From a virus, in IMG/VR virus record IMGVR_UViG_3300037516_001783, positions 43,936-107,935 of that record: DNA of 64,000 nt; one strand, given 5' to 3'. A program made the translations under genes and the position numbers. The stretch's first letter is position 1. Each line of letters begins with the position of its first letter. Below are positions 3,137-59,910 of the stretch, in pieces. The notes below the pieces were generated by a model. The model was not told where the DNA came from. It ran no database searches and worked only from the letters and a program-made list of their open reading frames with translations.

Positions 3137-4702
3137 TTATTCAAACGGATTCTCACTATCATCTGTTGGCATATCAGAATAATCTTCTTCACCATCTTCA
3201 GGTTGTACTTCACCACCTTCTTGTTCACCACCCATACCCATTTGTTGTGCAGCCATTTTGAATTGTGAGTAAGTACTTGACATAACATTATCTGCAGCTG
3301 GGTCTTTAATTTTTGGATAACCAAGTTCTTCTCTAACTTCATTTAAAGTTGCAAAGTTGGTTACTTTCTTAACTGCCATATCCAATTCCTCTGACTGACT
3401 TAATGCATCTATTCCAACGAACGATAAATAATAATCCTTATCTAATTGGTTTACCACATATTTATTTAGTCTGGAAGCTATGAATTTTAAAAGTGGGTAT
3501 AAACCTTTGTCCTTACTATGTTTTAATTTACCTTCATTATTACTTTCAAATAATGCTCTGTTTTCAGCTCCACCACTTTGTGAGAAACCTATTTCTTCTG
3601 GAGATATACAGTAAATTGCACAAGCTGTTTTGATAAGGTAATCTTGCCAAGCCTTAAACTCCATGTCTTTATTGGCAGTTTGAAGGTTGATGAATTCCAT
3701 CTTTCCAGCTTCCATAACAGGAGTCTTCCAAGCATTATGAACTCCAGAAACCATTGCTTGCCACTGTTGTTTAAATTCTTGGATTTTTGCTGGTGAAACT
3801 GAACCGTCTACACGAATAATACCTTTAGGTGCTGAACCTTGTGAGAAGAATCTTCTGTTATACTCATCTGACCATAACATAGAAGTTATTGTTGTTACAA
3901 GTTCTTCAAGTTCTGAAACTCCGTAACCAAAATTATGAATATCACTTTCTGGATTTCTAACACCAAAACATAATTCCCAAGGATAAAAATCTGCTACAAC
4001 CTGACCATTGTCTACTTGACAAAATGACGGATAATAACCTTTGATTTTTTCTTTGTTTTGGTTTTGATAACTATCATCATCAACACTATCAGATATCCTA
4101 AAAGTAGATGCGTCTGTGGCAATGAATTCTATTGGTAAACCTTTTCTGTTGTAAATAACCTCAAAAGTCAATTGGTCAAAAACTAATGAATCTCTTGTTA
4201 CTTTTCTTATGAAACTGTCAAAATCATCTGCTTCCCAAGAGTTGTTTGTACCACAATTCAAAATAAATTGCGTTATTTCATCAACCCTAGCTTGTTCTGC
4301 TTTTGTTAATTTTGAGTTTTCCTTACCTCTTTTTAAAATCTTAAATCCTGTACTGAATTTATCCTTCTGAGGTTCAGCAAATGCGGCAACTTGATTTACC
4401 CTTGTCTTAATAATAGCACTAATAACAGGAACTCTTGCCATACGTTTTAAATTGTCGTATGACATCCCCATAGCTTTATCCTTGTAACCTAAAGAAGTTG
4501 CAAAATCTAATGGGTCAATTAATATAGATTTTCTATCAGAAAGTTCTCTGTTCTCTATGTATTTACTTGCGATTGCTTGTGCTTTTACTAACTCATTTGG
4601 GTCTGTAGAAGATAGTGCACTGCCAACCAAAGACATTTTCTTAGCTAATATCTTTTCCTCTAAAGTATTTAAGATGTTTATTTTTTCTATTCTACCCATC
4701 AC
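3137..4702 (-). CDS. Portal protein
   Basis: 521 aa, a usual size for portals. The portal forms the ring at one capsid vertex through which the terminase pumps DNA and to which the tail attaches. Supporting features: RMARVPVISAIIKTRVNQ (87-104), the conserved N-terminal helix of PBSX/SPO1-type portals; GYGVSELEEL (259-268); FFSQGSAPKG (285-294); and CISPEEIGF (365-373), followed by a glycine-rich loop. The last 40 residues are strongly acidic. The ATG at 4702 is followed about 15 nt downstream of the stop by the ATPase gene. Large terminase lies far away (38632-40320), so the packaging genes are not clustered here. Confidence 0.88.
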   Translation of the reverse strand: MMGRIEKINILNTLEEKILAKKMSLVGSALSSTDPNELVKAQAIASKYIENRELSDRKSILIDPLDFATSLGYKDKAMGMSYDNLKRMARVPVISAIIKTRVNQVAAFAEPQKDKFSTGFKILKRGKENSKLTKAEQARVDEITQFILNCGTNNSWEADDFDSFIRKVTRDSLVFDQLTFEVIYNRKGLPIEFIATDASTFRISDSVDDDSYQNQNKEKIKGYYPSFCQVDNGQVVADFYPWELCFGVRNPESDIHNFGYGVSELEELVTTITSMLWSDEYNRRFFSQGSAPKGIIRVDGSVSPAKIQEFKQQWQAMVSGVHNAWKTPVMEAGKMEFINLQTANKDMEFKAWQDYLIKTACAIYCISPEEIGFSQSGGAENRALFESNNEGKLKHSKDKGLYPLLKFIASRLNKYVVNQLDKDYYLSFVGIDALSQSEELDMAVKKVTNFATLNEVREELGYPKIKDPAADNVMSSTYSQFKMAAQQMGMGGEQEGGEVQPEDGEEDYSDMPTDDSENPFE

Positions 4703-5311: not shown

Positions 5312-6260
5312 CTTTTAATATATTAGACAATGTGAATTCACCTTTGTAAGTGAATGTATTTAATTTTGACTTAAATTCCTCCTGTAATTGTAATTGATGT
5401 TGTTCTGATAACCAACAAGTTTTCAATTGCATTAATTTAGCATTCCTATAAACTTTTTCAGCAAGAGCAACTTCATCTTTCTTAAATTTGAAGTGTGCAT
5501 TTATCAATAAAGCAATGAACTCAATATATCCACTATCCCAGAATTCACAACCCAATAGTGAATTTTCATTCGCTTTTTGTACAATTCCTTCTGCCGTTTT
5601 ATCACCCATTCCTGTACAGATATTCGGGACATTATCACCACCATCACCAACTAATATTTTCTTTAATGTGAACTCGTTGTTATTAACTTCTATGTATTTA
5701 ACCTTATCTGAATTTTTAAGTTGTACCATCTTACCTTTAGCATGATACAATTTCAAATTAGAGCTGTTATTACAATAAACAAAATTGTTACCTGTAACAG
5801 ACTGAACCATATCAGCGTCTCCAGTAACAATTATTTGTGAATCACTTTTACTGTTCTTAGCGAGTTGTTCAACCCAATAAACTAACAGGTCATCACCTTC
5901 TAAACCTTCTATGCTTGAAATGATAAATCCTCTGGTTGACATAAACCTTTTGAATTTATCCATTATAGCATAAAAGTTCTTCCAACCTTCTTCATCTGAA
6001 GGGTCTTTTATTTTATTTTTGTATTCTGGGTAGTACTCTTTTCTCCAAGATTTACCTAAGTCAAAAACAATTACAATCCTACCTATTTCTGTAAAATTAT
6101 TGATTGCGTAACAACAATCAGTGATACATTTTCTGAAGAAAATACCTTGTTGTTCTTTTGTTTGAAGTGCATCTGTTAAGGTAGCATCTTGTCCCCAACC
6201 CTTTAATACACTAACACTTTTATGGAATAAATAATTCCCATCAATAATTATATTGTTCAT
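5298..6260 (-). CDS. 5'-3' exonuclease / flap endonuclease (T4 RNase H type)
   Basis: 320 aa, close to T4 RNase H in length. These PIN/FEN-fold enzymes remove RNA primers and 5' flaps during lagging-strand synthesis, using two divalent metals. Metal-binding acidic residues are visible in order: D7 (IIIDGNYLF), D67 (IVIVFDLG), E118/E121/D123/D124 (IEGLEGDDLL), D148/D150 (VTGDADMVQ) and D206/D209 (VGDGGDNVP), the last inside a helix-hairpin-helix-type region that ends GMGDKTAEGIV. Together with the ligase at 8468-9589 it supplies the Okazaki-fragment maturation pair. It ends 14 nt inside the next gene. Confidence 0.88.
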   Translation of the reverse strand: MNNIIIDGNYLFHKSVSVLKGWGQDATLTDALQTKEQQGIFFRKCITDCCYAINNFTEIGRIVIVFDLGKSWRKEYYPEYKNKIKDPSDEEGWKNFYAIMDKFKRFMSTRGFIISSIEGLEGDDLLVYWVEQLAKNSKSDSQIIVTGDADMVQSVTGNNFVYCNNSSNLKLYHAKGKMVQLKNSDKVKYIEVNNNEFTLKKILVGDGGDNVPNICTGMGDKTAEGIVQKANENSLLGCEFWDSGYIEFIALLINAHFKFKKDEVALAEKVYRNAKLMQLKTCWLSEQHQLQLQEEFKSKLNTFTYKGEFTLSNILKDEQN

Positions 6261-6272
6261 TAAATGATTAAA

Positions 6273-7310
6273 TTAATAAAGTAAGAATGAGTTGTCTCTT
6301 TCACCAACATTTATTTTTGACCTTTGTTTACCAACACCAACTTTCATTTTCCAATACTTTTGGTATTCACATAACATCATTTCTATATTGTGTAATGTAA
6401 GTTCACCTGTTTCAGAAACTTCATATACCTTTTTAACCTTGTTCCAAGTTGTATATTTAAAATCTTCAACTTGTTCGTTAAACATGTCTCTTAGTAAACC
6501 TATGCCACCAATTATTTCCTTTTCTTGTAAGCTTGGAAAAATTAATCTCAACCCAACTTTACATCCTGGACCGACATTGGTGAAATCATTTTGGTCAAAT
6601 TTGAACTTGAAATTCTTACAGTAAATTGTTATGTAAGTTAAGTCTTGATATAATTCATGACTAACAAAATGTGAAACAGAAGATATCGTTTCAAAACATT
6701 TTATCAATGGTTTTACATCATTTCCTTTAGCAAGAGTTTCTATTTTACTTAACAACGAAATCATCTTTGGGATAACCTTATTACAGAAATGCCAATCTCT
6801 TGTATGACCTATAGAACCTACGCTGTTTGTACAGTATGCATTTGTAAAAGGATTCCCACCAGACATCCTAAATTCCTTCAAAAGTTCTTCAAAAACAATT
6901 GGGTCATATTCTTCTGGTGTTGGGATACCTCTGTATGGAGAGTTCTTAATTAACCAAGAAAACAACAAATTGTTGTTAAAGAATTTAAAGAAGAACATGT
7001 AATAATACAACAACTTTATATCATCATTTGCATACGTAATTGCAGAACCTTTTAAATTTTTAGTATCAAAAGGTATCATTATTTTACTAATCAAGAATTG
7101 ACTTTCCCTGTCTAATTCCCTGTAAACATTTGTGAATTTGTTGTTTAATAGAATTTGGTCTTTAGTCCAAGGTTTTGGTTCTTTTAAAAACCTTTTGAAC
7201 CAAATATCTTGCCTCTCTTTAACTACGTAGAAAAATTCTTCTAAATTCTCTTGACAGACATCTAAATCTTCTGAAGGCAAGAACTTCTCAAATGTATGAG
7301 GTTTTTTCAT
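6273..7310 (-). CDS. Thymine-hypermodification family protein (HMUDK-helical / aGPT-Pplase-like)
   Basis: 345 aa. Several signatures match the family described as the helical domain of 5-hydroxymethyl-dU DNA kinase and alpha-glutamyl/putrescinyl-thymine pyrophosphorylase: KPWTKDQILL (46-55), FTNVYRELDR (59-68), SHELYQDLTY (217-226), GPGCKVGL (247-254) and the C-terminal LHNIEMMLCEYQKYW (306-320) followed by a basic G.GKQRSK. In phages that carry it, this family acts on 5-hydroxymethyluracil in DNA after replication. Assignment is from motif memory, not a search; the exact reaction (kinase-like or pyrophosphorylase-like) cannot be read from the sequence. Linked in function, if correct, to the thymidylate-synthase-family gene at 59913-61046 and the glycosyltransferase at 9803-10972. 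Confidence 0.7.
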   Translation of the reverse strand: MKKPHTFEKFLPSEDLDVCQENLEEFFYVVKERQDIWFKRFLKEPKPWTKDQILLNNKFTNVYRELDRESQFLISKIMIPFDTKNLKGSAITYANDDIKLLYYYMFFFKFFNNNLLFSWLIKNSPYRGIPTPEEYDPIVFEELLKEFRMSGGNPFTNAYCTNSVGSIGHTRDWHFCNKVIPKMISLLSKIETLAKGNDVKPLIKCFETISSVSHFVSHELYQDLTYITIYCKNFKFKFDQNDFTNVGPGCKVGLRLIFPSLQEKEIIGGIGLLRDMFNEQVEDFKYTTWNKVKKVYEVSETGELTLHNIEMMLCEYQKYWKMKVGVGKQRSKINVGERDNSFLLY

Positions 7311-7648
7311 TATTTCAAAATAAATTTAATCCTTTTATCAGAAGATTTCATTTTATCTTCTACAAATTTTTGAACTGCTAAAACAGATTCATAACTAAGG
7401 AATGTGTTTGTATTCACACCAGAATAAGTTTCTGGTAATTCACTATCGTCTACATAAAGTTTCTTATGTGACAATGAACAAACAACAGGTTGTTTTAATT
7501 TGTTTACTTTACTAACAACTTGTATTGGATAGTAAGAATGAACTAAATGTAAAACGAATTTAAGCGATTTACTATCTTCGTATTTCTTATGTAATTCTGA
7601 AACTAATCTTTCAACCTCTTCAACTTTATCAACTTCTTCTTGAAACAT
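7310..7648 (-). CDS. Unrecognised 112-aa protein
   Basis: Residues 1-35 are a charged helix, followed by a mixed alpha/beta region with PVVCSLSHKKLYVDDSE and a basic C-terminus. No motif is recognised. Its stop shares one base with the start of the next gene (TAATG junction), so it is likely translated with the hypermodification-family protein downstream. Confidence 0.7.
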   Translation of the reverse strand: MFQEEVDKVEEVERLVSELHKKYEDSKSLKFVLHLVHSYYPIQVVSKVNKLKQPVVCSLSHKKLYVDDSELPETYSGVNTNTFLSYESVLAVQKFVEDKMKSSDKRIKFILK

Positions 7649-7675: not shown

Positions 7676-7807
7676 TTATTTAAAGTAAATCAACTCACAA
7701 ACAGTAACACCTTTGATGTGCATTACCTTCAGAACTGCGTTACTTAATCTATGGACGTTGTTATTTTCTACCTTAACAACGTCCTTCTTTTTTACTATTT
7801 TAGACAT
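7676..7807 (-). CDS. Small basic protein, 43 aa
   Basis: ATG at 7805-7807, TAA at 7676-7678. The product starts MSKIVKKKDVVKVENNN and ends VTVCELIYFK. It overlaps the stop of the upstream 85-aa gene by 8 nt, the spacing seen at many junctions here, and it fills an otherwise empty 150-nt gap, which are the reasons to accept it. No function is suggested. Confidence 0.55.
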   Translation of the reverse strand: MSKIVKKKDVVKVENNNVHRLSNAVLKVMHIKGVTVCELIYFK

Positions 7808-8475: not shown

Positions 8476-9589
8476 ATTCCTCTCTGTTTATATTGATGAT
8501 TACAGGGAATCTTGGAATTCCATCAGGAGTTAAGTTCTGATATTTACAAGTAGCAGATTTACCAATGAAATCTTTTTTCTTTAACAACAACATTTTGTAA
8601 TATTCTCTATCACCTTTAATGTTGGAGTTGAAAACCTTTCCAGTCACCCTATCCTTTAAAACGATACCTCCAGCCATTCCTGCTCTTTCACCGTTACCTT
8701 CTTCTACATCAACAATTTCGAACTCCTCAGTAATCATTTCCTTTCTTTTTAACAAAGACTTACTTCTGTTATTTTCGTAGGCTGATAATGACGCTCTAAC
8801 CATTTGACCTTCATAACCTTCTTCCAAGAATTTACCGTAAAGTTCATCAAGATGTTCGTCTGATTCAACTTCAATGGTTTCAACCAACTTTAAATATTTG
8901 AAATCGTGTTTTTCAAATATCATTTCTAACAGCTGGAATCTTTCAACAAAAGAAACGTGTTTATGTTCTGGTAATTGTATGTCGTAGATGTGGTATTCTA
9001 AAAATTCTTCTGAGATTTGTAAGTCAGATTCAGAAGGTTTTGTTTTCTTAGCGTAAGAAATGATTTTGTTAAAATCTTCTTTTAAAATGTGGTTGTAAAT
9101 TTCACCGTCGATAACACAAGGTAAATTAATTTCCTCCTCCAGGATAGCAAGTTCTTTATCAAAATGAGGAACAGAAATTACAGGTTTACCACCTCTACTG
9201 AATTTACCGTTTTCATTTTTCACCATCCTCATACCATCCAATTTAGGCTGGCAGTGTCTTCTTTTACCTATTAGAGAACCTTTCATTTTCTCATATTCGA
9301 AGGCTAACATAGGAGCAACCATTTCTAATTTAGCAACGTCAATTAAGCTTAAACTGTGGGTGTAACCATTGTCTAACTTCTTAACTTGTTTTGCTCTTGC
9401 TTCCAATTGGGCTTGTTCTTCTGGTGAAGTTTCATTGCTTCTACCGATATTTTTACCTTTACAAACTGTCCAAGCAGAAGTGGTTCTAACACCTTCAATC
9501 TGACCTTCTACAGTTCTGTATTTATTACCTTCTACGATAATTTCCCAAACTTGGATGGCTCCAGTTTTAGTTCTTTTATATAACTCCAT
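8468..9589 (-). CDS. ATP-dependent DNA ligase
   Basis: 373 aa, T7/T4-sized. It seals nicks through an enzyme-AMP intermediate. The adenylated lysine is K116 in motif I (QPKLDGMR, 114-121); a later EGYEGQMVR matches motif IV and SKSLLKRK motif V. An OB-like C-terminal domain follows (VVDVEEG... GKVFNSNIKGD). The first 75 residues form a small extra domain (VWEIIVEGNKYRTVEGQIEG) as in other phage ligases. The start is preceded by an A/T leader and, 31 nt further up, by AACAGCGTT. Confidence 0.9.
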   Translation of the reverse strand: MELYKRTKTGAIQVWEIIVEGNKYRTVEGQIEGVRTTSAWTVCKGKNIGRSNETSPEEQAQLEARAKQVKKLDNGYTHSLSLIDVAKLEMVAPMLAFEYEKMKGSLIGKRRHCQPKLDGMRMVKNENGKFSRGGKPVISVPHFDKELAILEEEINLPCVIDGEIYNHILKEDFNKIISYAKKTKPSESDLQISEEFLEYHIYDIQLPEHKHVSFVERFQLLEMIFEKHDFKYLKLVETIEVESDEHLDELYGKFLEEGYEGQMVRASLSAYENNRSKSLLKRKEMITEEFEIVDVEEGNGERAGMAGGIVLKDRVTGKVFNSNIKGDREYYKMLLLKKKDFIGKSATCKYQNLTPDGIPRFPVIININREEYE

Positions 9590-19722: not shown

Positions 19723-19791
19723 CCACCCCAATAGGTCTCGAACCTACATCTCTCTGCTCAGAGTATTCTCACCGAATTAAACTACAGGGTG
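19723..19791 (-). tRNA. tRNA-like element with shortened anticodon arm
   Basis: The 3' half is a good tRNA: T arm GTAGG-TTCGAGA-CCTAT, 7-bp acceptor stem CACCCTG/TGGGGTG, discriminator G and no encoded CCA. The D arm is also plausible (GTTT/GAAT with AATTCGGTGA loop). Between the D and T arms only 17 nt remain, where a standard tRNA needs 22-23, and that stretch folds as a short perfect hairpin (CTCTG/CAGAG) with no 7-nt anticodon loop. It may be a decayed tRNA or a tRNA-like RNA; no anticodon is assigned. Confidence 0.5.
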
Positions 19792-33069: not shown

Positions 33070-33141
33070 CCCTGAACCCAAGAATCGAACTTGGACACCT
33101 CGAACAATAGGACGAGTACTCTACCATTAAGATAATTCAGG
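33070..33141 (-). tRNA. tRNA-like gene, anticodon uncertain
   Basis: Acceptor CCTGAAT/GTTCAGG (7 pairs, last G-U), T arm CCAAG-TTCGATT-CTTGG, D loop with A-A-T-G-G-T-A, discriminator G, no CCA. Length (72 nt) is normal. The anticodon arm CTCG....CGAG leaves a 10-nt loop (TCCTATTGTT) instead of 7, with a T-T mismatch closing it, so the anticodon is not certain. Confidence 0.65.
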
Positions 33142-36007: not shown

Positions 36008-36295
36008 TTACTTTGTTTTCTTTAACAACTCTAATTCCTCTATTCTAAGTTTTCTCTTTGGTGAGATTTTTGCTACAACAACACGGATACCAAACTCATC
36101 GTTCAATTTTTCCTTTAATTCATTGTACTTCTGAACATTTTTAACAATCTCTTCGTGATATGCTAAATTCATGTTTTTCAAAACCCTCATTTCTTCAATT
36201 ATTGGTCTTGTTACTTTACCATGAGGATATAACCTTTTGTCTGTTAAATCGAATAAATTTACATAAAAACCTTCTTCACACTTCCCTTGCTTCAT
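36008..36295 (-). CDS. Unrecognised 95-aa protein
   Basis: Helical, charged (EEMRVLKNMNLAYHEEIVK, KYNELKEKLNDEFGIRVV). First protein gene downstream of the tRNA-like element at 36314, so it may be co-transcribed with the noncoding region. Confidence 0.6.
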   Translation of the reverse strand: MKQGKCEEGFYVNLFDLTDKRLYPHGKVTRPIIEEMRVLKNMNLAYHEEIVKNVQKYNELKEKLNDEFGIRVVVAKISPKRKLRIEELELLKKTK

Positions 36296-36313
36296 AAAAT
36301 AATTAAATTTAAG

Positions 36314-36390
36314 TGATTCTGGTAGGAATCGAACCTACAACATTCCCTACTTGCTTACATGTTACATTTAACTACCTAGGATGTTGTTAT
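36314..36390 (-). tRNA. tRNA-like 3' domain (T arm and acceptor strand)
   Basis: A good T arm, GTAGG-TTCGATT-CCTAC, is followed by the acceptor strand CAGAATC and discriminator A. The matching 5' acceptor strand is not at the expected distance; GGTTCTG at 36449-36455 would pair with it, giving about 143 nt instead of 73, and GATTCT near 36409 is another partial match. A D-like hairpin GTTA/TAAC is present. This is either a broken tRNA or part of the larger structured RNA; the upstream boundary given is arbitrary. Confidence 0.4.
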
Positions 36391-36660
36391 TTGTGAACAA
36401 GAAACCATCAAGAATCCAATTTCGACGTTTAGAACCATTAAACGTCTACAGAACCATATTAAAAATAAACAAACTCCCTTACCTATCAATAATTACTATC
36501 AAGGTTCTGTACTCACATCTTCATCGTTACTCTTCTAAAGTTTACGACTTATAGCTTTTCTTTGAGGATACCTTTCCGTAATTTGTCGACTTGGACGGTA
36601 CACTTACAATCAGGACATTAAGTGTAGGCAAATAACTCCTACATTGTTTGTTTATTTTTG
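36391..36660 (-). ncRNA. Structured noncoding segment A (270 nt)
   Basis: No plausible ORF on either strand. Perfect stems: 36424-36431 with 36439-36446 (8 bp, 7-nt loop); 36447-36455 with 36503-36511 (9 bp), directly stacked on the first; 36599-36606 with 36619-36626 (8 bp); and 36624-36628 with 36638-36642 (5 bp), which competes with it. The density of perfect long stems in an AT-rich genome argues for a folded RNA. Strand is assumed to be minus because tRNA-like elements and neighbours are. Confidence 0.5.
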
Positions 36661-36730
36661 CTCTGGTGAGAGGATTCGAACCTCTGTCTCCCACTGAAAG
36701 GACGGCACTCGCCAACTATGCTACACCAGA
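36661..36730 (-). tRNA. tRNA-like gene, class I, odd anticodon arm
   Basis: Acceptor TCTGGTG/CACCAGA (7 perfect pairs), D arm GCAT/GTGC with AGTTGGCGA loop, T arm AGAGG-TTCGAAT-CCTCT. Only 19 nt separate the D and T arms, where 22-23 are normal. The best anticodon arm (CGTCC, loop TTTCAGT, GGGAG, with one mismatch) would expose UCA, but the variable region would then be only 2 nt. Anticodon left open. Confidence 0.6.
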
Positions 36731-37137
36731 ACCTTAACAACTTATGTAAATTGCTAAGTACAGTTCCAAGTCAGCTTCACTTGAATTTCAGACTACTGTA
36801 CACCTGTATCTTTAAATAAACCACTTTTTACATAAAAGTTTCAACTACATGTTTTGTTTATTTCAAGAACCTTAGACTTGTTTTCACATAGGTCTAAGAT
36901 TTTAGTTGTTAATCAGTTCAGACCATCTTTGTATAGTTACTAAGAACATTTCCACAAAGTCACATCAATCCCTGATAGGCTTAGATTCTTCCTAATTTAC
37001 CTGACACAGACATTTCTCTGCATTTTCGTCACTTGATTGTTATAGAACAGACAAGAACAAATAAATTAGGTTAACAACTAATTTTATTTCCTGTAACTCC
37101 AAGTTTGTTAATATTTACTTACTTCAAGTAGGAATTG
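36731..37137 (-). ncRNA. Structured noncoding segment B (407 nt)
   Basis: No ORF of note. Nested stems 36758-36764 with 36795-36801 (7 bp, perfect) enclosing 36765-36771 with 36779-36785 (7 bp with one G-U in RNA); also 36871-36877 with 36892-36898 (7 bp perfect). Sits between two tRNA-like elements, so it is presumably within the same precursor. Confidence 0.48.
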
Positions 37138-37232
37138 TAGCTTTCAAGAGATTCGAACTCCCATCCTTTACAGTTTTCGATTCCTGTATCCTCATTACGA
37201 AATGAGTGCTTTATCCATTAAGCTAGAAAGCT
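37138..37232 (-). tRNA. tRNA-like gene with long variable arm
   Basis: Acceptor AGCTTTC/GAAAGCT (7 perfect pairs), discriminator A, T arm GGGAG-TTCGAAT-CTCTT, D arm with AATGGATAA loop. A long variable arm (ACAG/CTGT) makes it class II (Leu, Ser or Tyr). The anticodon hairpin CTCAT-TTCGTA-ATGAG has a 6-nt loop, one base short, so the anticodon cannot be assigned. Confidence 0.6.
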
Positions 37233-37626
37233 GTTATAATTAGACATAACTCTTCTTTGGTTGAGTTCTTACCATTCTGGGTGGTGCTTACGAAGGTATT
37301 ACACCCTTTCTCCTCTCTAATTATTTTAATTTTCATAAATCAAAACAACCCTACTAACGGAGTCAAACCATTAACTAAAACATGAAATATTGAAAATTGC
37401 GACTTACAATATTTCATTAGTTTGTTAGTGATGTGACTTTCAAACTAATCTTTATGTTAAAGTTTCTTACACAAGAAGTACGGTTGTTTTGATATTATTT
37501 TGCAACTTATTTTATCTTTCGAAATACGTAGTTACCAAACGCCATGCCCCTACATGGTTTATATTTCCGATTGAAATATAGGTTGAACCTCAAACTTAGT
37601 TTCCTAGAGGTTTGAGATTTAGTGTC
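37233..37626 (-). ncRNA. Structured noncoding segment C (394 nt)
   Basis: A 12-bp perfect long-range stem, 37339-37350 with 37482-37493, encloses an 11-bp perfect hairpin, 37382-37392 with 37407-37417, whose stem continues outward with bulges. Further hairpins: 37542-37546/37553-37557 (5 bp), 37561-37567/37573-37579 (7 bp) and 37589-37595/37610-37616 (7 bp). On the minus strand this is the 5' end of the noncoding block, directly after the SPFH lipoprotein gene. No promoter of the TAnnTTTG type was seen inside. Confidence 0.55.
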
Positions 37627-38457
37627 TTATTTTTTGATATTTATCATATCGTAGAAACCTGATTGAGTTACATACTGAGGCATAGGGCATCCAGCTTTCG
37701 TCCAACCTTCTATAGCTTTTTCTTTTATAGCTATTTCTCTTTCTTGAAGTAATAACGCTGTTACACCTAATGACCTTGCTCTACTTGCTTCAGAGTTTAA
37801 ATTAGCAAGTTCAATTTCTTTCTTGGTGTTAGCTAACTTTTTATCTAATATCGCACTTTCACCTTCAACCTTGTTTCTTTCAGCAATTTTAGCTTTCATT
37901 TCTGGTGTGAACGACAGTTGTGAAGAGTATGTTAGTAATTCGAACCCAGCCTTGTCAAATATCTTTCTAAGAGAATCTGTACACATTTTCTCATATTTCA
38001 ACTTACCACCGTTGTTCATTAATTGTTCATCCGATAATGAGTTAGAAATCTCTCTGGAAATATCTTTGATTCTTGGGTCTAATATTTGGTCTTCAATCAT
38101 ATCGAGGTCTATATTATCTCCTAAATGTTTATAATTGAAAACAATATTTATACCTTGACCAACCTTCGCTCTATAAGTATAGATAGGACTAACAAAGAAA
38201 TCGGTATTATCTGTAGAACTTATTGTTAATTTATCACCATAATCACCTTTTTGTTCATAAAGTGGAACTTGAAATAATTCACTTCCAGCAGTCCAAGTGG
38301 CAACTTTTCCTGTTACTCTATGGAAATCAGATTTACCATCCTTACCATAATTTTCCATCATTACACCTTCGTGGTTAGGTTTTACCCAATCATTACAAGA
38401 GGATAACAACATGATTGCTCCTAAGAGCATGACCAAATTAAATGCTACTTTTTTCAT
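37627..38457 (-). CDS. SPFH/prohibitin-like lipoprotein
   Basis: 276 aa. A signal peptide with lipobox (LLSSC, acylated C21) is followed by a band-7/SPFH domain (about 25-160: EGVMMENYGKDGK, PIYTYRAKVGQG, NIVFNYKHLG) and a coiled coil (about 170-245: KIAERNKVEGESAILDK, ANTKKEIELANLNSEASRA), with a C-terminal TKAGCPMP. SPFH proteins form ring or cage oligomers on membranes. In phages such proteins have been proposed to act in membrane protection or exclusion of other phages; here that is inference. The lipid anchor replaces the usual membrane helix. Confidence 0.82.
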   Translation of the reverse strand: MKKVAFNLVMLLGAIMLLSSCNDWVKPNHEGVMMENYGKDGKSDFHRVTGKVATWTAGSELFQVPLYEQKGDYGDKLTISSTDNTDFFVSPIYTYRAKVGQGINIVFNYKHLGDNIDLDMIEDQILDPRIKDISREISNSLSDEQLMNNGGKLKYEKMCTDSLRKIFDKAGFELLTYSSQLSFTPEMKAKIAERNKVEGESAILDKKLANTKKEIELANLNSEASRARSLGVTALLLQEREIAIKEKAIEGWTKAGCPMPQYVTQSGFYDMINIKK

Positions 38458-38614
38458 TTGATTTTGACTTTGTTTGTCGTTTAATATATAAGTAAACTCC
38501 TGCTATTGTAATGCCCACAGGAATTAAGGCATAATATAAATTATAATGATTAAAAGTTGTAACAATAACTTGTAACATTATAAGTAATACGATTGTAAAT
38601 ATAACATCTTTCAT
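38438..38614 (-). CDS. Small membrane protein, 58 aa
   Basis: ATG at 38612-38614 and TAA at 38438-38440, overlapping the SPFH lipoprotein start by 20 nt. Two hydrophobic helices (VIFTIVLLIMLQVIVTT and YALIPVGITIAGVYLYI) and a basic tail. The overlap and shared membrane location make it a probable partner of the SPFH protein. AACAGCGTT lies 9 nt upstream. Confidence 0.68.
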   Translation of the reverse strand: MKDVIFTIVLLIMLQVIVTTFNHYNLYYALIPVGITIAGVYLYIKRQTKSKSNEKSSI

Positions 38615-38623
38615 AATGAATAT

Positions 38624-38632
38624 AACGCTGTT
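38624..38632 (-). promoter_or_regulatory. AACAGCGTT copy after the large terminase
   Basis: Starts in the TAA stop of terL (38632-38634) and ends 9 nt before the ATG of the 58-aa membrane gene. Confidence 0.42.
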
Positions 38633-40320
38633 TAAATCATTTCAACTCCGAAACCAGAGTTCATTAAGTAAATTCCTTTAATTGCTTGATGCATAGACAT
38701 TGCTGTATCGTCGTGCCCACTTGTTGCTGAAATACCTTTATTAGTATATGAAACAGAAGTAAGTTCGTTAAACAAGATATCTTTGATATTCCTACTGTAT
38801 TCACTTCCGATAGGGACTTTTATTTTACCCTTTTCAAATAGTAAAGACATTCCTGGAATCCCAGTTTTCAAGTCATTTTTGCTTTTTGCACTTGTAGCTT
38901 CATGTACAATTGGTAACCCTTCACTATCTGCTGCCTGACAGAACATTGCTTGAAATCCGTTACTTTCTATAACAATTATGTCTGGTTTGAAGTCTACATT
39001 TAAACCTCTCAACTTTCCTAATTGTTCTAAATAACTTTTACCATGCATCCTGTATTGGTTAATTAACCAAATATCACCTGAAGCGTCTAAACCTAAAACA
39101 GTATAAACAGTATAATCGGCTCCCACATTTGCAGAAATAGCTAAATCGACTCCTATAACAACTCTTTCAAAAGATATTGGGAAACTTTCTATGTTATGAC
39201 ACATTTCAAATTTATCCATACCAACCAACGATTTCTGTAAGATATTGTATGGGAATAAACTTGAATCATTTGAAACAGGTCTAACTAAGTGTTCTCTTGA
39301 GAAAGTTACAGAACCTTGTGATTCCTTTTTATTATAAAGTGTGTCAAAATTATACCTATTCCTCCATAATAATTTACCATCTGGAAAGATACTTGGGTAT
39401 TCAGCATAATAGAAAATTTTGTCTTTCTTTAACTGACCATATAAATCTTCAGCATGAAAAGGAGTCCCAACAACTTTTACATCACCTTGTGGGACAATCA
39501 TATTCATTATAACAGAATAGAAATAACTTGTGTATTTATTTCTTTGTTCTGCAGAATATAAATTTGATTCATGTAAAAAGTCATCTACTATTATAAAATG
39601 TGGATGGGCACCACGAGTAGATGCTCCGGCAGAAGAAGAAGTGATTGTTGAACCGTTCTTACATACAATCCTTGTTTCTGCCCAATTCCCATCACTTCTT
39701 GTTTCTGGTAATAACTTCTCTCTTAACAATTCATTTTCTTGAATTGTTGTTTTTAAAGTTCTAAGTAATTTTGTTGACTGACCTTTGGCGAAACTGAATA
39801 GATAACCTTCCTTTCCTACAGTACTTAACTCTCTTCGTTTTGAATCTTTTGTGTACCTATACAATTTCCATATAGGATATGCATTGGAGAAGAAGTGACT
39901 TTTACCATGGTCTCTGGCTGCCAGAATACACATATACTTAAAAGCTTGACAAGTTTCTGCCCATTCTATATGGTGCCAATTCATTTCAAATTCAGGCATA
40001 ACTGAACTTATGAAATATGTCAAACTTTCAACTCTTAAAGTTTCTTCAAATGAATCTGTTAATTTATCTAAATACAGATTTGTTATTGGGTTGTAACTTA
40101 ATTCAGAATTTGAGTGTTTGAAATTACCATAAACTGTACTGTATGTTTCAGTAACCAAATCCTGTAATAACCTGTCTACATCACCTTCAGAACCACCTAA
40201 TAATTGTGACAAACCTGAGTCGTCAAGATTTTCAATTATTTCCAAAGTAATTCTTAGACAGTCATCTAACTTATCGAACGGTATGGCACCTTGAACTATA
40301 TTCTTGTTAATTATATCCAT
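38632..40320 (-). CDS. terL: Terminase large subunit
   Basis: 562 aa. Packaging motor with N-terminal ATPase and C-terminal RNase H-like nuclease. Seen: Walker A-like AARDHGKS (134-141), Walker B HFIIVDDF (241-248), coupling motif VVGTPFHAEDLYG from about 283; nuclease acids D392 (IGVDLAIS), E452 (IIVIESNGF) and D537/D538 (SGHDDTAMS). The ~115-residue N-terminal helical extension before the ATPase is longer than in many TerLs. Downstream of it lie a DEDDh exonuclease and a possible small terminase (41768-42952). Confidence 0.93.
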   Translation of the reverse strand: MDIINKNIVQGAIPFDKLDDCLRITLEIIENLDDSGLSQLLGGSEGDVDRLLQDLVTETYSTVYGNFKHSNSELSYNPITNLYLDKLTDSFEETLRVESLTYFISSVMPEFEMNWHHIEWAETCQAFKYMCILAARDHGKSHFFSNAYPIWKLYRYTKDSKRRELSTVGKEGYLFSFAKGQSTKLLRTLKTTIQENELLREKLLPETRSDGNWAETRIVCKNGSTITSSSAGASTRGAHPHFIIVDDFLHESNLYSAEQRNKYTSYFYSVIMNMIVPQGDVKVVGTPFHAEDLYGQLKKDKIFYYAEYPSIFPDGKLLWRNRYNFDTLYNKKESQGSVTFSREHLVRPVSNDSSLFPYNILQKSLVGMDKFEMCHNIESFPISFERVVIGVDLAISANVGADYTVYTVLGLDASGDIWLINQYRMHGKSYLEQLGKLRGLNVDFKPDIIVIESNGFQAMFCQAADSEGLPIVHEATSAKSKNDLKTGIPGMSLLFEKGKIKVPIGSEYSRNIKDILFNELTSVSYTNKGISATSGHDDTAMSMHQAIKGIYLMNSGFGVEMI

Positions 40321-54373: not shown

Positions 54374-54940
54374 TTAAATATCCCTTAAATCTAACATCAA
54401 TTTGAATTCACTTTCTAAATTATTGATACAATAAATTTGAGTTTTTAACAATTTATCAGATTTATTACCTAATGAAATTTCATTGTTAATAAATTTATTA
54501 AAACTCATCCAATCTGAAAGTTTGACAATTGTTTTAATCAACGGTGTTACATTCTGTACCATATGTTGTACCGAATACAAATCATGTTCTTTTAACTTAT
54601 CATCTAATCTTGAACCACAGAATTTTGACAATAAAGTTCTCATTTCTGAACCGTTGACTTCATCATTCTTAACTTGATGTGGAATGTCACCTGAGAAGAC
54701 TTCTTCTACGTCATGCATTAATGAATATGTTAAAACTTCAAATTTGAATTGAGAGTCATACCCATAAAAAAAGTTTTCTAAAATGTACAAGCAATAAAAT
54801 GAAACCCAAAATGAATGTTCAGAAAGGTTCTCATTTTTATTTGTTTGTAATAATGTCCATCTTTTTATTGAGTCCATTGAACTTAAATCACTGTCGTTGA
54901 TTAAGTTGTTAATCTTACTTAATTGTTTATTATAACTCAT
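54374..54940 (-). CDS. YfbR-like HD-domain 5'-deoxynucleotidase
   Basis: 188 aa. HD residues: SEHSFWV (first histidine), SLMHDVEEVFSGDIPH (HD dyad and the EvfsGDiPh motif of the YfbR group) and a distal aspartate in VKLSDWMSF. Such enzymes dephosphorylate dNMPs; phage versions can remove a nucleotide the phage does not want, for example dTMP when thymine is replaced (inference). Overlaps the polymerase C-terminal gene by 11 nt. Confidence 0.84.
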   Translation of the reverse strand: MSYNKQLSKINNLINDSDLSSMDSIKRWTLLQTNKNENLSEHSFWVSFYCLYILENFFYGYDSQFKFEVLTYSLMHDVEEVFSGDIPHQVKNDEVNGSEMRTLLSKFCGSRLDDKLKEHDLYSVQHMVQNVTPLIKTIVKLSDWMSFNKFINNEISLGNKSDKLLKTQIYCINNLESEFKLMLDLRDI

Positions 54941-57401
54941 AAAATACGCTATCGCTGTTTATATATACATTGTTTTTATTTCTGAAATCGTCGAATCCAA
55001 TCTTACCTGTGATAAACATTAATTTACCTTTCCAAGTTGCTATTTTGTCTTTTATCAAACTGTACTCATCAGCCCAAGCAATACACTCTATTTGATAATT
55101 ATTAGCAGAAATTTCCATTTTACAGAACACACCTTTCTTAGATTCAAATTCTCTAAAATTCATTAAGAAACCAATAACACCGTAAGTTTTACCATTATTG
55201 TAGAACTTCTTGATTTCAACTTTCTTACTAAGAACATCTTTGATTTCCATATAATCGTAGTCAGCAGAAATGTTATGTTTGTGTTCGTTTAACAACTCTT
55301 TAAACTTAACATCGCCATTACCTATCAGTTCTTTTTGATTCAACATCCAGAAGTAATTTTTGTTGGAAGCTGGGTCGTTTAAAACCTTACATTCTTTTAA
55401 TTCTTTTGGGAATTTAAGTTCATATAACTCTTGTAACAATTCTCTTCTTGCTTTTACATCCCTTATTCCACAAAGACTGTCAAAAGCACCACATTGAATT
55501 AAAATTCTAATTACTTTCTTATTAACTCCTGAAGGTATATTATTACAAAAGTGTACAAAGTCCTTAAATTTACCGACTTTTTCTCTCGCTTGGATTATCT
55601 TTTCTGCAGTTGCTACACCTATTCCCTTGATTTTATTTAGAGACCAAAATATCCTACCTTCTTCCCTATCACAACAGAATTCAAAAGAAGATTTATTGAT
55701 ATCTGGCTTGTCAACAACAATATCTAAATTAGCTTCTTGAACTTCTCTTAGAATTAATGGTATGTCAACATCTTCCTTACCAAAATTCATTGCTGTTGTA
55801 TAGAACTCTAAAGGGTGATTTGCTTTTAACCATTGACATTGATAAGCCATAATTGCATAGCAAGCACTGTGTGAATTGTGACTAACTATATCATCACACA
55901 CGAAATTATGGTGAACAGGCATTTCGATATCGTATGTATCTTCTTCACCAACAAATTTAATTGAATTTGCTTTTGAACTTGATAACATCATAAAATCAAC
56001 TGTTATAATGTTATCACCTTCTTTTAAACACTTTAGTTCAACATAACCTCTTTTTGTTAAAAGTCTGTGATTGTCAGTGACTTTTATTTTCTTACCATCT
56101 TCAAGTTCTAACTCATACACTTTTTGTTTACCTTGATAAAAAACTTTAGACAAATCCTGTTCTATAATTTCATTATCATTGTTTACAGAATATAGTGTAT
56201 GATTAATACCTTTTAAGAAATCATTATGTAAGTCAACAACATTAATATCACCTTTTGTAGTTTTAATAACAGAATCCTTGCTTAAACACTTGTTAAAACC
56301 GTATCCTGCAAATGATAATAATTTCTTCCAAATAGCTTTTGCTTCCTCTATACTACAACCCTGTTCTTCCATCCCAAGTAAGAATTTCACCTCGAATTTA
56401 CCCATCAAAGCTGTATCTTTTTTCTTGATAGCAGTTCTCATTTGGTCACTTTCAAGTAAAGTTAAACCACCAACTACAACAGCTTGCATAACCTGTTCTT
56501 GATAAATATAAATTCCTTGAGTATCTTTAGTAACAGTTTCCATATTGAAATCAAAAACAGGTTTTTTCTTACCATTTTTGAAGTCTATGAAATCTTTATG
56601 AGCACCAATTTCCATTGTAGCTGGACGATACAAAGCATTCATAGCAATTAAATCGGAAAGTGAATCAGGTTTAACTTGTTTGCTGAAATTCTTTAGTCCG
56701 AAAGAACCGAATTGAAACACATCTTCATTATGACCTTCCCTGAATAATTTGAAAACTTTTTCATCGTTGAAATCAATTTCTTGTAAATTAATTTCTTGTC
56801 CTGTATTTTCTTTGATTAAGTTCAAACAATAGGTGTATTTATCCAACTGTTTGATTCCTAAAATATCTTCTTTTAAAACACCAAAAATATCTGTATATTT
56901 ACCCTCCCATTCAGAAACAATCATGCCGTCAATTTCCCTAATTGGCATCCAAGTTTCCAATGTCCTTCTAACACCTTTCTTATCAACTTTAGGTAAAACA
57001 ACAATTGCTGAAGGATGAATAGACATAGATTTTGGATTATTCAAAATAACCTTCAAATCTAAAATCAGTTGAGGATTTTTCTGTATGAAATCATAAAGTT
57101 TAACACTCTTTCTGGCAAATAAAAAGATGTCCTTCCAAGAATATTCTAATTGGTCATCCATTACCTTAGTTAATTCATTAGCTTCCTTAAAATCTACACC
57201 TGCAACTCTACATAAGTCCTTGAAAGCTTGTCTTAGTTTTAACCTACCATAACTACCAAGAGAACATACTTGGTCTTCAGTAAATTTGTCTGTTATGTAA
57301 GCTTTAATGTCATCTCTGTTCTTGGAAGTGAAATCTATGTCGATATCCGGAAACACGTCCGACCTGTTTTGCTTCTTCTTTTCTATCTTAATTACCTTCA
57401 T
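54930..57401 (-). CDS. dnaE: Family-C DNA polymerase (DnaE) C-terminal part with mini-intein
   Basis: 823 aa from the ATG at 57399-57401, just inside the end of the GIY-YIG gene (a GTG further up is possible). It begins KKKQNRSDVFPDIDIDF: the catalytic aspartates D19 and D21 of the polymerase come only 18 residues from the start, so the enzyme is split inside its palm, the preceding half being 58222-59910. Then come the fingers (SLGSYGRLKLRQAF, SIHPSAIVVL), the GFNK-SHSACYA site holding a 138-aa intein, a helix-hairpin-helix (KIKGIGVATAEKIIQ) and a C-terminal OB fold. Non-covalent assembly or protein trans-splicing is required for a complete polymerase. Confidence 0.88.
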   Translation of the reverse strand: MKVIKIEKKKQNRSDVFPDIDIDFTSKNRDDIKAYITDKFTEDQVCSLGSYGRLKLRQAFKDLCRVAGVDFKEANELTKVMDDQLEYSWKDIFLFARKSVKLYDFIQKNPQLILDLKVILNNPKSMSIHPSAIVVLPKVDKKGVRRTLETWMPIREIDGMIVSEWEGKYTDIFGVLKEDILGIKQLDKYTYCLNLIKENTGQEINLQEIDFNDEKVFKLFREGHNEDVFQFGSFGLKNFSKQVKPDSLSDLIAMNALYRPATMEIGAHKDFIDFKNGKKKPVFDFNMETVTKDTQGIYIYQEQVMQAVVVGGLTLLESDQMRTAIKKKDTALMGKFEVKFLLGMEEQGCSIEEAKAIWKKLLSFAGYGFNKCLSKDSVIKTTKGDINVVDLHNDFLKGINHTLYSVNNDNEIIEQDLSKVFYQGKQKVYELELEDGKKIKVTDNHRLLTKRGYVELKCLKEGDNIITVDFMMLSSSKANSIKFVGEEDTYDIEMPVHHNFVCDDIVSHNSHSACYAIMAYQCQWLKANHPLEFYTTAMNFGKEDVDIPLILREVQEANLDIVVDKPDINKSSFEFCCDREEGRIFWSLNKIKGIGVATAEKIIQAREKVGKFKDFVHFCNNIPSGVNKKVIRILIQCGAFDSLCGIRDVKARRELLQELYELKFPKELKECKVLNDPASNKNYFWMLNQKELIGNGDVKFKELLNEHKHNISADYDYMEIKDVLSKKVEIKKFYNNGKTYGVIGFLMNFREFESKKGVFCKMEISANNYQIECIAWADEYSLIKDKIATWKGKLMFITGKIGFDDFRNKNNVYINSDSVFYEL
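55875..56288 (-). other. Mini-intein (protein-splicing element) in dnaE
   Basis: 138 codons, residues 372-509 of the C-terminal polymerase protein. N-terminal splice cysteine in CLSKDSVIKTTKGD; block B KVTDNHRLLTKRGY with the T..H motif; LKEGDNI; C-terminal YDIEMPVHHNFV and closing SHN, followed by serine (SHSACY). It interrupts the highly conserved GFNKSHAAAY-type motif, the classic DnaE intein site. There is no endonuclease domain. All splice-junction residues (C1, block-B His, penultimate His, terminal Asn, +1 Ser) are intact, so it should splice. Confidence 0.9.
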
Positions 57402-58185
57402 ATAAATATCTCCATCTAAAACCTCCTGCTGACCTGTTATCTTTATTCGCAGCACACGTAATTGAACCTCTGTTGATACCTAAAACCTTTGAAGCTTCTA
57501 CTGAACTCTTAAACGTTGCTATGGTTTCTCCTGTATCTTTGTTAATTTGAACAATCCTTATAGACTTCTTATTTGACATGTTCTGCTTCTGAGTTTCATC
57601 CCAAAATTTACCATAATTCGGGTTCTTTTCACCGTCATATCTACCTATAAATTTTTCACTCAATTGTTTCTTTTTATCTTCAGACCATTTTCTACCATAG
57701 TTTGGATTCCTCTCACCAACTTGATTTAAAGCTTTAACAGAATCAGATATCTTCTTCCTTACTTCTGGGTTGTCTATGTAGAATTGTTTCTTTGTTTGTG
57801 AAAACTTCTTCATATTCTCAATACCAACATCACTTTTAAAAAATTTACGTATAGAAATTGTAAATTTTCCAACAACCTCTGGAAGTAACATTGGCGAACC
57901 AGAACCGAATTTATTTGAAGTTCCTATTAATATGTTATAACCACAAACCCTATTTGTAGAACTGTATAGTTCAATGAACAATTCTTCGTATCCATCCAAT
58001 TCTTCTTGTGTTTTTAACCCTTCAATTAAAATCTCTTTTGAGAAATTACACTTACCATGTTTTTTAATTGAATTCACTATTAATGTTCCAGAACCAAAAT
58101 AATTTTTAGAATGTTGTTTACATTGAGTACTTTGACCAATATAAACTTTACCATTTCTAATGTCAGTTGTTTTGTAAATATACAT
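57388..58185 (-). CDS. GIY-YIG homing endonuclease between the two halves of dnaE
   Basis: 265 aa. N-terminal nuclease domain MYIYKTTDIRNGKVYIGQST (GIY-YIG as YIY and YIG), with a later glutamate in GYEELFIELYSS. The second half holds NUMOD3-like repeats (RNPNYGRKWSEDKKKQLSE, KNPNYGKFWDETQKQN) and a terminal NUMOD1-like helix-turn-helix (SSVEASKVLGINRGSITC). Such genes insert in introns, inteins or between gene fragments and spread by cutting intron-less copies. It overlaps the second dnaE fragment by 14 nt. Confidence 0.88.
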   Translation of the reverse strand: MYIYKTTDIRNGKVYIGQSTQCKQHSKNYFGSGTLIVNSIKKHGKCNFSKEILIEGLKTQEELDGYEELFIELYSSTNRVCGYNILIGTSNKFGSGSPMLLPEVVGKFTISIRKFFKSDVGIENMKKFSQTKKQFYIDNPEVRKKISDSVKALNQVGERNPNYGRKWSEDKKKQLSEKFIGRYDGEKNPNYGKFWDETQKQNMSNKKSIRIVQINKDTGETIATFKSSVEASKVLGINRGSITCAANKDNRSAGGFRWRYLYEGN

Positions 58186-58221
58186 ACCAGATATAGAGTT
58201 AGATTTTAATAAACATAACTG

Positions 58222-59910
58222 CTAAACACTGTATGTACTTGAAACTTCATCACCTTCAACTAACTTATTAGATTCTATTTTAGAACCATCTTCCATTTTA
58301 ACAAGCTCACCTTCAGTAAATGATAGAACCGTGTTATTTTCTAAAGTCACTGTATAATTAAATGACTCTTTAAAACGAGATTCATTTAAGAACCTTTCAA
58401 ATAACAAGCCATATTCAATTGGGTCTACAAGCGTAACTCCTATCACATAAGCTAATAATGAACCAGCAGCAGAACCACGTCCTGGACCAACAAATACTTT
58501 ATTAGAATTAGCAAAATCAACTACATCTGCTAGAATCAAGAAATAATCACTAAACCCAGCACCAGAAATAATGTCAAATTCATGTTTTAACCTTTTTTCA
58601 TAAATATGGTGTTTACTTTTTGGTATTTTCTTGTAGATTATATTTTCCATACCAATTTGACATAAATCCCAAAGTAAATTATCACTTTCAGATTTTGTTA
58701 ATTCTACACCGTCAATTTCAAACATCGGTAATTTTGGTTCACCGATAGGTATGTTGTAATTACAAATTTCAACTAACTTGTTAGCAGATTCAAGACCTTC
58801 ATTTATTAGATTTTGAAATTTATCATAATCGTCAAAATATTCACCTATCACTTGTAAAGTTTCTTCTGAAGTTTTCATAAATTGATTTGGTGAGTAATGT
58901 CTTGTGAAACCACCAATCTTATTCAAAATATCTTTACAATGAGCATGAGATTCTTCTAAATAATAAACGTCGTCCAACAGAATAATTTTAACTCCTGTAT
59001 CGTGGAAATTGTCTAAAAAGAATTTCAAAGAATTTAAACATTTCAAATAAACCCTATCGTCTGAAAATATAGCAGATGATAACTGGAAATACAGGTTTTC
59101 ACCAAAATTTTCTATGTAGCTGTTGAGGATTGATTTGTAATGTTTTAAATCAGTAATGTCTTGAAAAACATTTGATGAAAAATCTATAACACAAACGAGT
59201 CCTTCTGAATGGTCTAACACATCTATGTTGTGTACAAAACCTTTATTATGAACATTTATTTGTTTATTGATTGAAAGTAATGAATCCCAACCTTTTTCAT
59301 TAATAACATACATTTTCAGATTGTAAGTTATTTGTTTACTCAAAGATTCGTCGTAATCATAACAAACACTTATTTCCTCACCAACTATAAATTTCAAGCC
59401 ATATGAAACTGCTTTCTGTTGAAACCCTAAAGTTCCAGCTAAAGTGTTATGGTCACAAATTCCTATTGATTTATGTTTTAAGAATTTAGCTTTTTTACAA
59501 GCGTTTGTAAAATTTAGTGCAGAATTAAGAAGTTCATATTCAGAATGTACTGCTAAACATTGGTGAAATGATTCTTTTGGACTTTCACCTAAATACAAAA
59601 AGTCATTAAAATCTATTTTTATGTATTCGTCATTAAACTCGTCCTTAAACATCTTAATTTCCGAATAAAAGAAATTACTACCAAATTCAAAAAGTATCTT
59701 TAGACCTTTGTATTCCTTAGCTAAATCAAGAATTAATTCTTGTTCTTCACTTGAAATATTAAACACAATTTCTTTCTTAACATCTTCTAAGAATAGATTT
59801 TGGTCTCCTCCTAATATGTAAAAATACATATCTGTATTCTCTACTTTTAACAGAGACTCAGATATGTATTCTACAGATAAATTATTTACTTTTATCCAAT
59901 TTTCTAACAT
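58222..59910 (-). CDS. dnaE: Family-C DNA polymerase N-terminal part with HINT-like tail
   Basis: 562 aa. PHP domain (HSEYELL 122-128, CDHNTLAG 152-159, IVGEEI 175-180), followed by the palm: GPGRGSAAGS at 475-484 and LFERFLNESR at 503-512. In normal DnaE this last motif is followed within a few residues by PDIDIDF; here it runs into a 50-residue tail with NYTVTLENN and IESNKLVEGDEVSS that looks like the beta-rich part of a HINT/intein domain (V-x-LE-N, L-x-GDxV). The tail lacks the expected Cys at the splice site, and no matching C-terminal intein half is seen ahead of PDIDIDF in the next fragment. Confidence 0.88.
   Translation of the reverse strand: MLENWIKVNNLSVEYISESLLKVENTDMYFYILGGDQNLFLEDVKKEIVFNISSEEQELILDLAKEYKGLKILFEFGSNFFYSEIKMFKDEFNDEYIKIDFNDFLYLGESPKESFHQCLAVHSEYELLNSALNFTNACKKAKFLKHKSIGICDHNTLAGTLGFQQKAVSYGLKFIVGEEISVCYDYDESLSKQITYNLKMYVINEKGWDSLLSINKQINVHNKGFVHNIDVLDHSEGLVCVIDFSSNVFQDITDLKHYKSILNSYIENFGENLYFQLSSAIFSDDRVYLKCLNSLKFFLDNFHDTGVKIILLDDVYYLEESHAHCKDILNKIGGFTRHYSPNQFMKTSEETLQVIGEYFDDYDKFQNLINEGLESANKLVEICNYNIPIGEPKLPMFEIDGVELTKSESDNLLWDLCQIGMENIIYKKIPKSKHHIYEKRLKHEFDIISGAGFSDYFLILADVVDFANSNKVFVGPGRGSAAGSLLAYVIGVTLVDPIEYGLLFERFLNESRFKESFNYTVTLENNTVLSFTEGELVKMEDGSKIESNKLVEGDEVSSTYSV

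Follow-up and report, generated by a model that had tools for sequence, protein, structure and literature searches.

Results

Genomic setting of the gene-free block

The stretch of 64,000 nt analysed here, referred to as the window, comprises bases 43,936-107,935 of a phage record of 107,935 bp (G000). Long ORFs amount to 70.5 kb on the minus versus 2.0 kb on the plus strand, which identifies the former as the gene strand. Between a small ORF and the gene of an SPFH-type lipoprotein lies a block (Table 1) in which a sequence-only reading had recognised no credible protein gene. This is borne out, as between the flanking genes merely chance ORFs of 30-57 aa are found. A hidden protein gene was also considered and rejected: on neither strand does an ORF exceed 57 aa, and the longer ones overlap tRNAs or stems. 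The second gap in the list of non-coding intervals (57456, 518 nt) arises artificially from the ORF filter, as it falls within an ORF at 57388-58185.

The terminase encoded close to the block has its closest relatives in Bacteroides phages (39% identity) and in metagenomic phages (43-47%). In these relatives further genes follow close behind the terminase gene without a comparable gap; with no such block nearby, they (L001-L004, DAC19) were dismissed as a source of homologues. Since, in addition, the portal gene is far removed from the terminase gene in the window, we regard the block as lying in an accessory stretch particular to the window's phage. A full Bacteroidota-type promoter was found neither in the block nor in the lipoprotein gene.

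The lipoprotein is most similar to proteins from two phage contigs, L008 (83% identity) and L009 (75%), while the next best homologue found in IMG/VR does not exceed 44%. In both contigs the gene of the small hydrophobic protein has an equally placed homologue (53% and 30% identity, respectively). Besides this gene pair, the proteins of G000 have a single partner (51%) in L008, a contig which at only 15.9 kb is too short for a good measure of its relatedness to the window. In the 126-kb contig L009 they have four partners of 26-47% identity, a count which leaves out the opposite-strand reading of the lipoprotein gene. Beyond the pair, these phages thus have hardly any proteins in common, and those at 25-51% identity, compared with 75-83% for the lipoprotein.

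Table 1. Positions of the block, its elements and neighbouring genes in the window.
Feature	Position	Strand	Remarks
Portal gene	3137-4702		about 34 kb away from the terminase gene
Small ORF	36008-36295	(-)	family unassigned; neighbour of the block on its downstream side
Non-coding block	36296-37626	(-)	1,331 nt; largest gene-free interval of the record
tRNA fragment	36321-36375	(-)	intact T arm, no acceptor stem; 18.5 bits
Spacer C	36376-36660	(-)	z -0.06 on gene strand
tRNA, opal anticodon UCA	36661-36730	(-)	discriminator G; Rfam 42.7 bits
Spacer B	36731-37137	(-)	z -2.6; 1/100 shuffles as stable
Hairpin copy B	36868-36901	(-)	CUA/A internal loop, GAAA loop; R1 52.1 bits
P4 long-range helix	37071-37081 (5') with 36902-36912 (3')	(-)	11 bp
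P1-P3, 3' side	37088-37104	(-)	ACTT G GAGT TAC AGGAA; common to L008:3877-3893
P1-P3, 5' side	37121-37134	(-)	TTCCT ACTT G AAGT; common to L008:3697-3710
tRNA, long variable arm	37138-37232	(-)	Rfam 43.6 bits; ARAGORN: Tyr(GTA)
Spacer A	37233-37626	(-)	z -5.0; 0/100 dinucleotide shuffles as stable
12-bp long-range stem in spacer A	37339-37350 with 37482-37493	(-)	within a 17-nt, 94% inverted repeat
Hairpin copy A	37586-37619	(-)	CUC/A internal loop, GAAA loop; R1 50.5 bits
SPFH-type lipoprotein gene	37627-38457	(-)	phrog_200; SPFH/band-7 per relatives' annotation
Small hydrophobic protein gene	38438-38614	(-)	homologues equally placed in L008 and L009
Large terminase gene	38632-40320		just upstream of the lipoprotein/small-protein region

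tRNA genes and folding of the spacers

Three tRNA-like elements had been proposed for the block. Two of them are tRNA genes which pass the Rfam cut-off of 29 bits used as cloverleaf test, while the element near 36314 is reduced to a fragment scoring well below it. Inspected by eye, the anticodon arm of the tRNA with the long variable arm reads CUCAU-UUCGUA-AUGAG and thus encloses a loop of 6 nt. A reassigned UGA code behind the opal tRNA can be ruled out as a genome-wide code, as UGA ends 7 of 100 long ORFs. All four tRNA genes of the window (19723-19791, 33070-33141 and the two within the block, each on the minus strand) look irregular at the anticodon arm; three have loops of 4-10 nt as judged by eye, and the fourth carries the anticodon UCA. 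ARAGORN calls only two of the four. They may be either decaying or altered tRNA-like RNAs.

The strong stems formerly described for the three spacers are all present, including an 11-bp hairpin (37383-37416) enclosed by the 12-bp stem of spacer A. Yet, while spacers A and B fold more stably than their shuffled counterparts, the stems of spacer C (36424-36446 and 36447-36455/36503-36511) do not surpass chance stability. The plus strand of spacer A likewise reaches a z score of -4.4, and because stability alone does not tell the two strands apart, conservation was examined. A perfect complement of 12 nt links spacer A (37429-37440) to spacer B (36956-36967), with about 0.05 such matches expected by chance.

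A hairpin motif in three copies

Spacers A and B both contain a hairpin of 34 nt composed of a 10-bp stem, an internal loop with CUN on the 5' and A on the 3' side, three further base pairs and a GNRA tetraloop. Copy A forms the start of spacer A, 7 nt past the lipoprotein stop codon, and a third copy occurs in L008 (L008:3998-4031). In the alignment of the three copies 97% of the pair cells are paired and 4 of the 13 pairs have changed on both sides, one of them appearing as three different Watson-Crick pairs. In slid registers of the same alignment no pair is changed on both sides. The strict definition of the hairpin yields no hit on either strand when 3.84 Mb of random sequence with matching composition are searched.

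When a covariance model of the hairpin (R1) was run on the complete record of the window and on 70 other phage records, solely the three copies matched at 48-52 bits; the runner-up (20.8 bits in G002) lies antisense within a gene and was discarded. In pattern scans the hairpin consensus occurred in a further 18 viral stretches and in 66 genomic ones, most of them coding where checked. Look-alikes are, as expected, present in GTDB genomes. The best of all look-alikes, on a Vibrio contig (41.5 bits), was rejected as it is located between convergent genes and resembles a terminator; by our own estimate about 0.1-0.2 such matches are expected by chance. The hairpin motif alone is not diagnostic, its context is. 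Intrinsic terminators on the gene strand were dismissed, as a U run is missing behind all three hairpins; on the opposite strand copy B looks terminator-like.

A helical architecture shared with L008

The non-coding stretch of L008 is situated downstream of its lipoprotein gene, with one ORF between. Three of its patches have counterparts in spacer B, arranged in the same order, namely TTCCYRCTTGAAGTAARTAAATA, AAC(A)AACTTGGAGTTAMAGG and the hairpin. The helices P1-P3 are paired in the minimum free energy folds of both the window and L008. One pair is compensated, TTCCT/AGGAA in the window corresponding to TCCCT/AGGGA in L008; the remaining pairings are those of ACTT or GCTT with GAGT and of AAGT with ACTT. 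P1-P3 enclose a loop of 16 nt in the window versus about 165 nt in L008, where the interior holds a 13-bp tRNA-like stem (L008:3804-3871).

In both phages the long-range helix P4 begins 0-6 nt past P1 and ends flush against the hairpin, which is the last element of the series, while its sequence is unrelated between the two. The length of P4 in the window is reached by 8 of 5000 shuffles, and that in L008 (12 bp) by none of 5000, counts which are somewhat optimistic as the shuffled box was picked after the helices had been seen. In spacer B the hairpin copy is followed by more hairpins, including that at 36758-36801. P1-P4 and the hairpin are placed on the gene strand of both phages and keep one orientation with respect to the lipoprotein gene. 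At the level of nucleotide comparison, the two phages show the hairpin, P1-P3 and P4 to be kept by compensatory change.

The covarying elements are carried by these two genomes only, and no third convincing homologue emerged when IMG/VR was scanned four times and GTDB genomes once with sequence patterns. Of the 55 other stretches that contain the pattern ACTTGGAGTTANAGGRA, not one combines the P1-P3 partner with the hairpin, and the partner is likewise missing from the 23 others that contain CTTGAAGTAARTAAATA. When the block and the L008 RNA were compared by BLAST with 50,697 phage records, the matches were no better than chance. L009 contains a structured gap (z -3.4) in the corresponding place, without the hairpin. 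Further observations on this contig comprise two odd tRNAs (L009:7931-8048 and 8677-8762), one of them Leu-like and oversized in its variable region, a direct repeat TTTCTACTG..CTTAAATGG.TAAGTTGTTGTA which opens each of two structured gaps, and a stretch of 15 nt, TTAAATGGTAAGTTG, matching the L008 RNA.

Comparison with known RNA families

GOLLD and ROOL are large ornate phage RNAs which can form RNA-only cages and for which, to our knowledge, no function is known. Their setting and size range had led to the suggestion that the block might belong to one of them. The model searches contradict this suggestion: with all Rfam families, neither GOLLD nor ROOL matches the block at E ≤ 5, and a single-family search of the whole record with the GOLLD model (RF02032) finds nothing at E ≤ 10, while the positive control, contig L079, scores 306 bits. 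No ROOL reaches the gathering score within the window, and the conserved 3' domain of GOLLD, for which the Rfam model was required to score at least 150 bits, is absent from the block. The tmRNA model RF00023 has no match in G000, and the best match of the permuted form (RF04321; 12.8 bits, E 0.1, cut-off 47) falls on the tRNA fragment and is at chance level. Membership among tmRNAs or permuted tmRNAs was rejected, as the model searches reveal no tRNA-like domain together with a tag piece.

As to general features, the block resembles GOLLD in being a large structured element, phage-encoded and near tRNAs. It differs by its own P1-P4 and CUN/GNRA hairpin and by the lack of the GOLLD 3' domain. 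The linker of GOLLD sometimes includes tRNAs, and GOLLD rises during lysis; ROOL is a phage RNA found near tRNA islands (PMC12286853). With ROOL the block has the tRNA-linked phage setting in common, though it produces no Rfam match. The most abundant transcript of phage ICP1 is a non-coding RNA of about 0.8 kb from an ORF-less space of about 1 kb, which parallels the block as a large RNA that is not reported to belong to a family (PMC7567579). It differs in that ICP1 has no tRNAs, and the likeness, as with GOLLD and its rise during lysis, is an analogy drawn from descriptions.

The site downstream of SPFH lipoproteins in other phages

A downstream gap of at least 300 nt is often seen among 80 wider lipoprotein loci. 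In the 68 of them with enough flank, tRNA or tmRNA genes within 2 kb are located downstream in 17 and upstream in 7 cases (one-sided P 0.02). Rfam places a tmRNA downstream of the lipoprotein in L013, L045, L051, L055 and L058 and upstream in L047, and a permuted tmRNA downstream at L024:6495-6755, L038:6021-6282 and L050:5434-5699. In each of the latter three a tRNA-Met gene follows 32-34 nt after the permuted tmRNA. L079 carries a full-length GOLLD (8493-8907) downstream of a homologous lipoprotein.

The position downstream of the lipoprotein is therefore a recurrent RNA site of which the window's RNA is a different occupant; with phage tmRNAs and permuted tmRNAs the block shares this site, and it differs from them in lacking a match above chance. 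This suggests the region downstream of phage SPFH lipoproteins as a place to seek more such RNAs. Behind the lipoprotein gene of L079 (segment 5808-9394), GOLLD shares a gene-free stretch of 2.4 kb with a stop-anticodon tRNA, a group I intron (7239-7426) and a weak tRNA (7705-7798), the latter two upstream of GOLLD. In L033, 975 nt behind an SPFH lipoprotein (5936-6910) are gene-free and without Rfam match.

Discussion

We assign a probability of roughly 55% to the reading that the block encodes a structured non-coding RNA which lies downstream of the SPFH-lipoprotein gene and is made from its strand. The evidence for structure, drawn from sequence comparison, is good, and the RNA would probably be a working one of an uncatalogued kind whose shape rather than letters is kept in L008. 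The best reading appears to be a rapidly evolving structured phage RNA which falls into the class of large tRNA-linked phage RNAs and into no known family. As far as the class is concerned, the sequence-only reading is upheld by elements which recur and covary in L008; its tentative link to GOLLD and ROOL is not. With two genomes and three hairpin copies the RNA can be put forward as a candidate new family.

Given the tRNAs, several RNAs of about 0.3-0.4 kb are more likely than a single one of 1.3 kb. A transcript would be co-transcribed with the lipoprotein gene and run through the tRNAs, at the two of which RNase P and 3' endonucleases of the host would cut, freeing spacer RNAs of about 0.4 kb. 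At least spacer B would then be a stably folded RNA working by its structure. Since tertiary or RNA-RNA contacts are commonly built from GNRA loops and from helices that abut one another, the hairpin would most likely provide contacts for packing or assembly.

Alternatively, the block could be a decaying tRNA/tmRNA island, left from a formerly normal tRNA array, with eroding tRNAs and with spacers which are debris, the hairpins stabilising or ending mRNAs. The fragmentary tRNA, the irregular anticodon arms of the others, the broken or unusual tRNA-like pieces in L008 and L009, the intact tRNAs or tmRNAs occupying the same site in other phages and the chance-level folding of spacer C are all consistent with such erosion. 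Decay would, however, neither preserve helices through compensatory change in two phages nor retain one motif in two hairpin copies that lie 700 nt apart and have unrelated flanks, and we consider this explanation doubtful, if worth keeping in mind. It is unlikely that the hairpins are mere cis elements of the flanking mRNAs, protecting the 3' end of the lipoprotein mRNA or forming the leader of the next gene, with no separate RNA involved. The closeness of copy A to the lipoprotein stop codon would fit this function, as would the L008 hairpin, which ends about 20 nt ahead of the next possible ORF, and the terminator-like appearance of copy B on the opposite strand. Copy B, however, lies mid-spacer between two tRNAs, connected with P1-P3 and P4 as its L008 counterpart is, and on the gene strand the hairpins lack a U run. 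A divergent member of GOLLD or ROOL, finally, would agree with setting and size, with the tRNAs possible in GOLLD linkers (PMC12286853) and with the true GOLLD of L079, but in view of the failed model searches with a working control and of the missing 3' domain it is highly improbable.

Returning to a structured RNA of its own kind, this RNA would travel between phages with the gene pair of small membrane protein and lipoprotein. A lipoprotein gene of 75-83% identity in a dissimilar background suggests, at the sequence level, horizontal transfer of the pair together with its RNA neighbourhood; unusually strong constraint on the lipoprotein is a possible alternative. That SPFH lipoprotein, small membrane protein and structured RNA act together as a mobile phage cassette is a speculative and rather improbable extension. 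If true, the RNA might for instance be a scaffold which during infection is held at a membrane microdomain or regulates it, and it would be the part for which GOLLD, tmRNA or another ornate RNA could be substituted. As an RNA unrelated to GOLLD and ROOL in a like setting, it would provide a further test case for ornate phage RNAs, with the neighbouring membrane-protein gene pair as the first candidate for a protein partner.

In another part of the window (54930-59910), the translations indicate a DNA polymerase III alpha-like gene which is seemingly split by an intein-like sequence and also by a GIY-YIG homing endonuclease-like gene, the latter corresponding to the above-mentioned ORF at 57388-58185.
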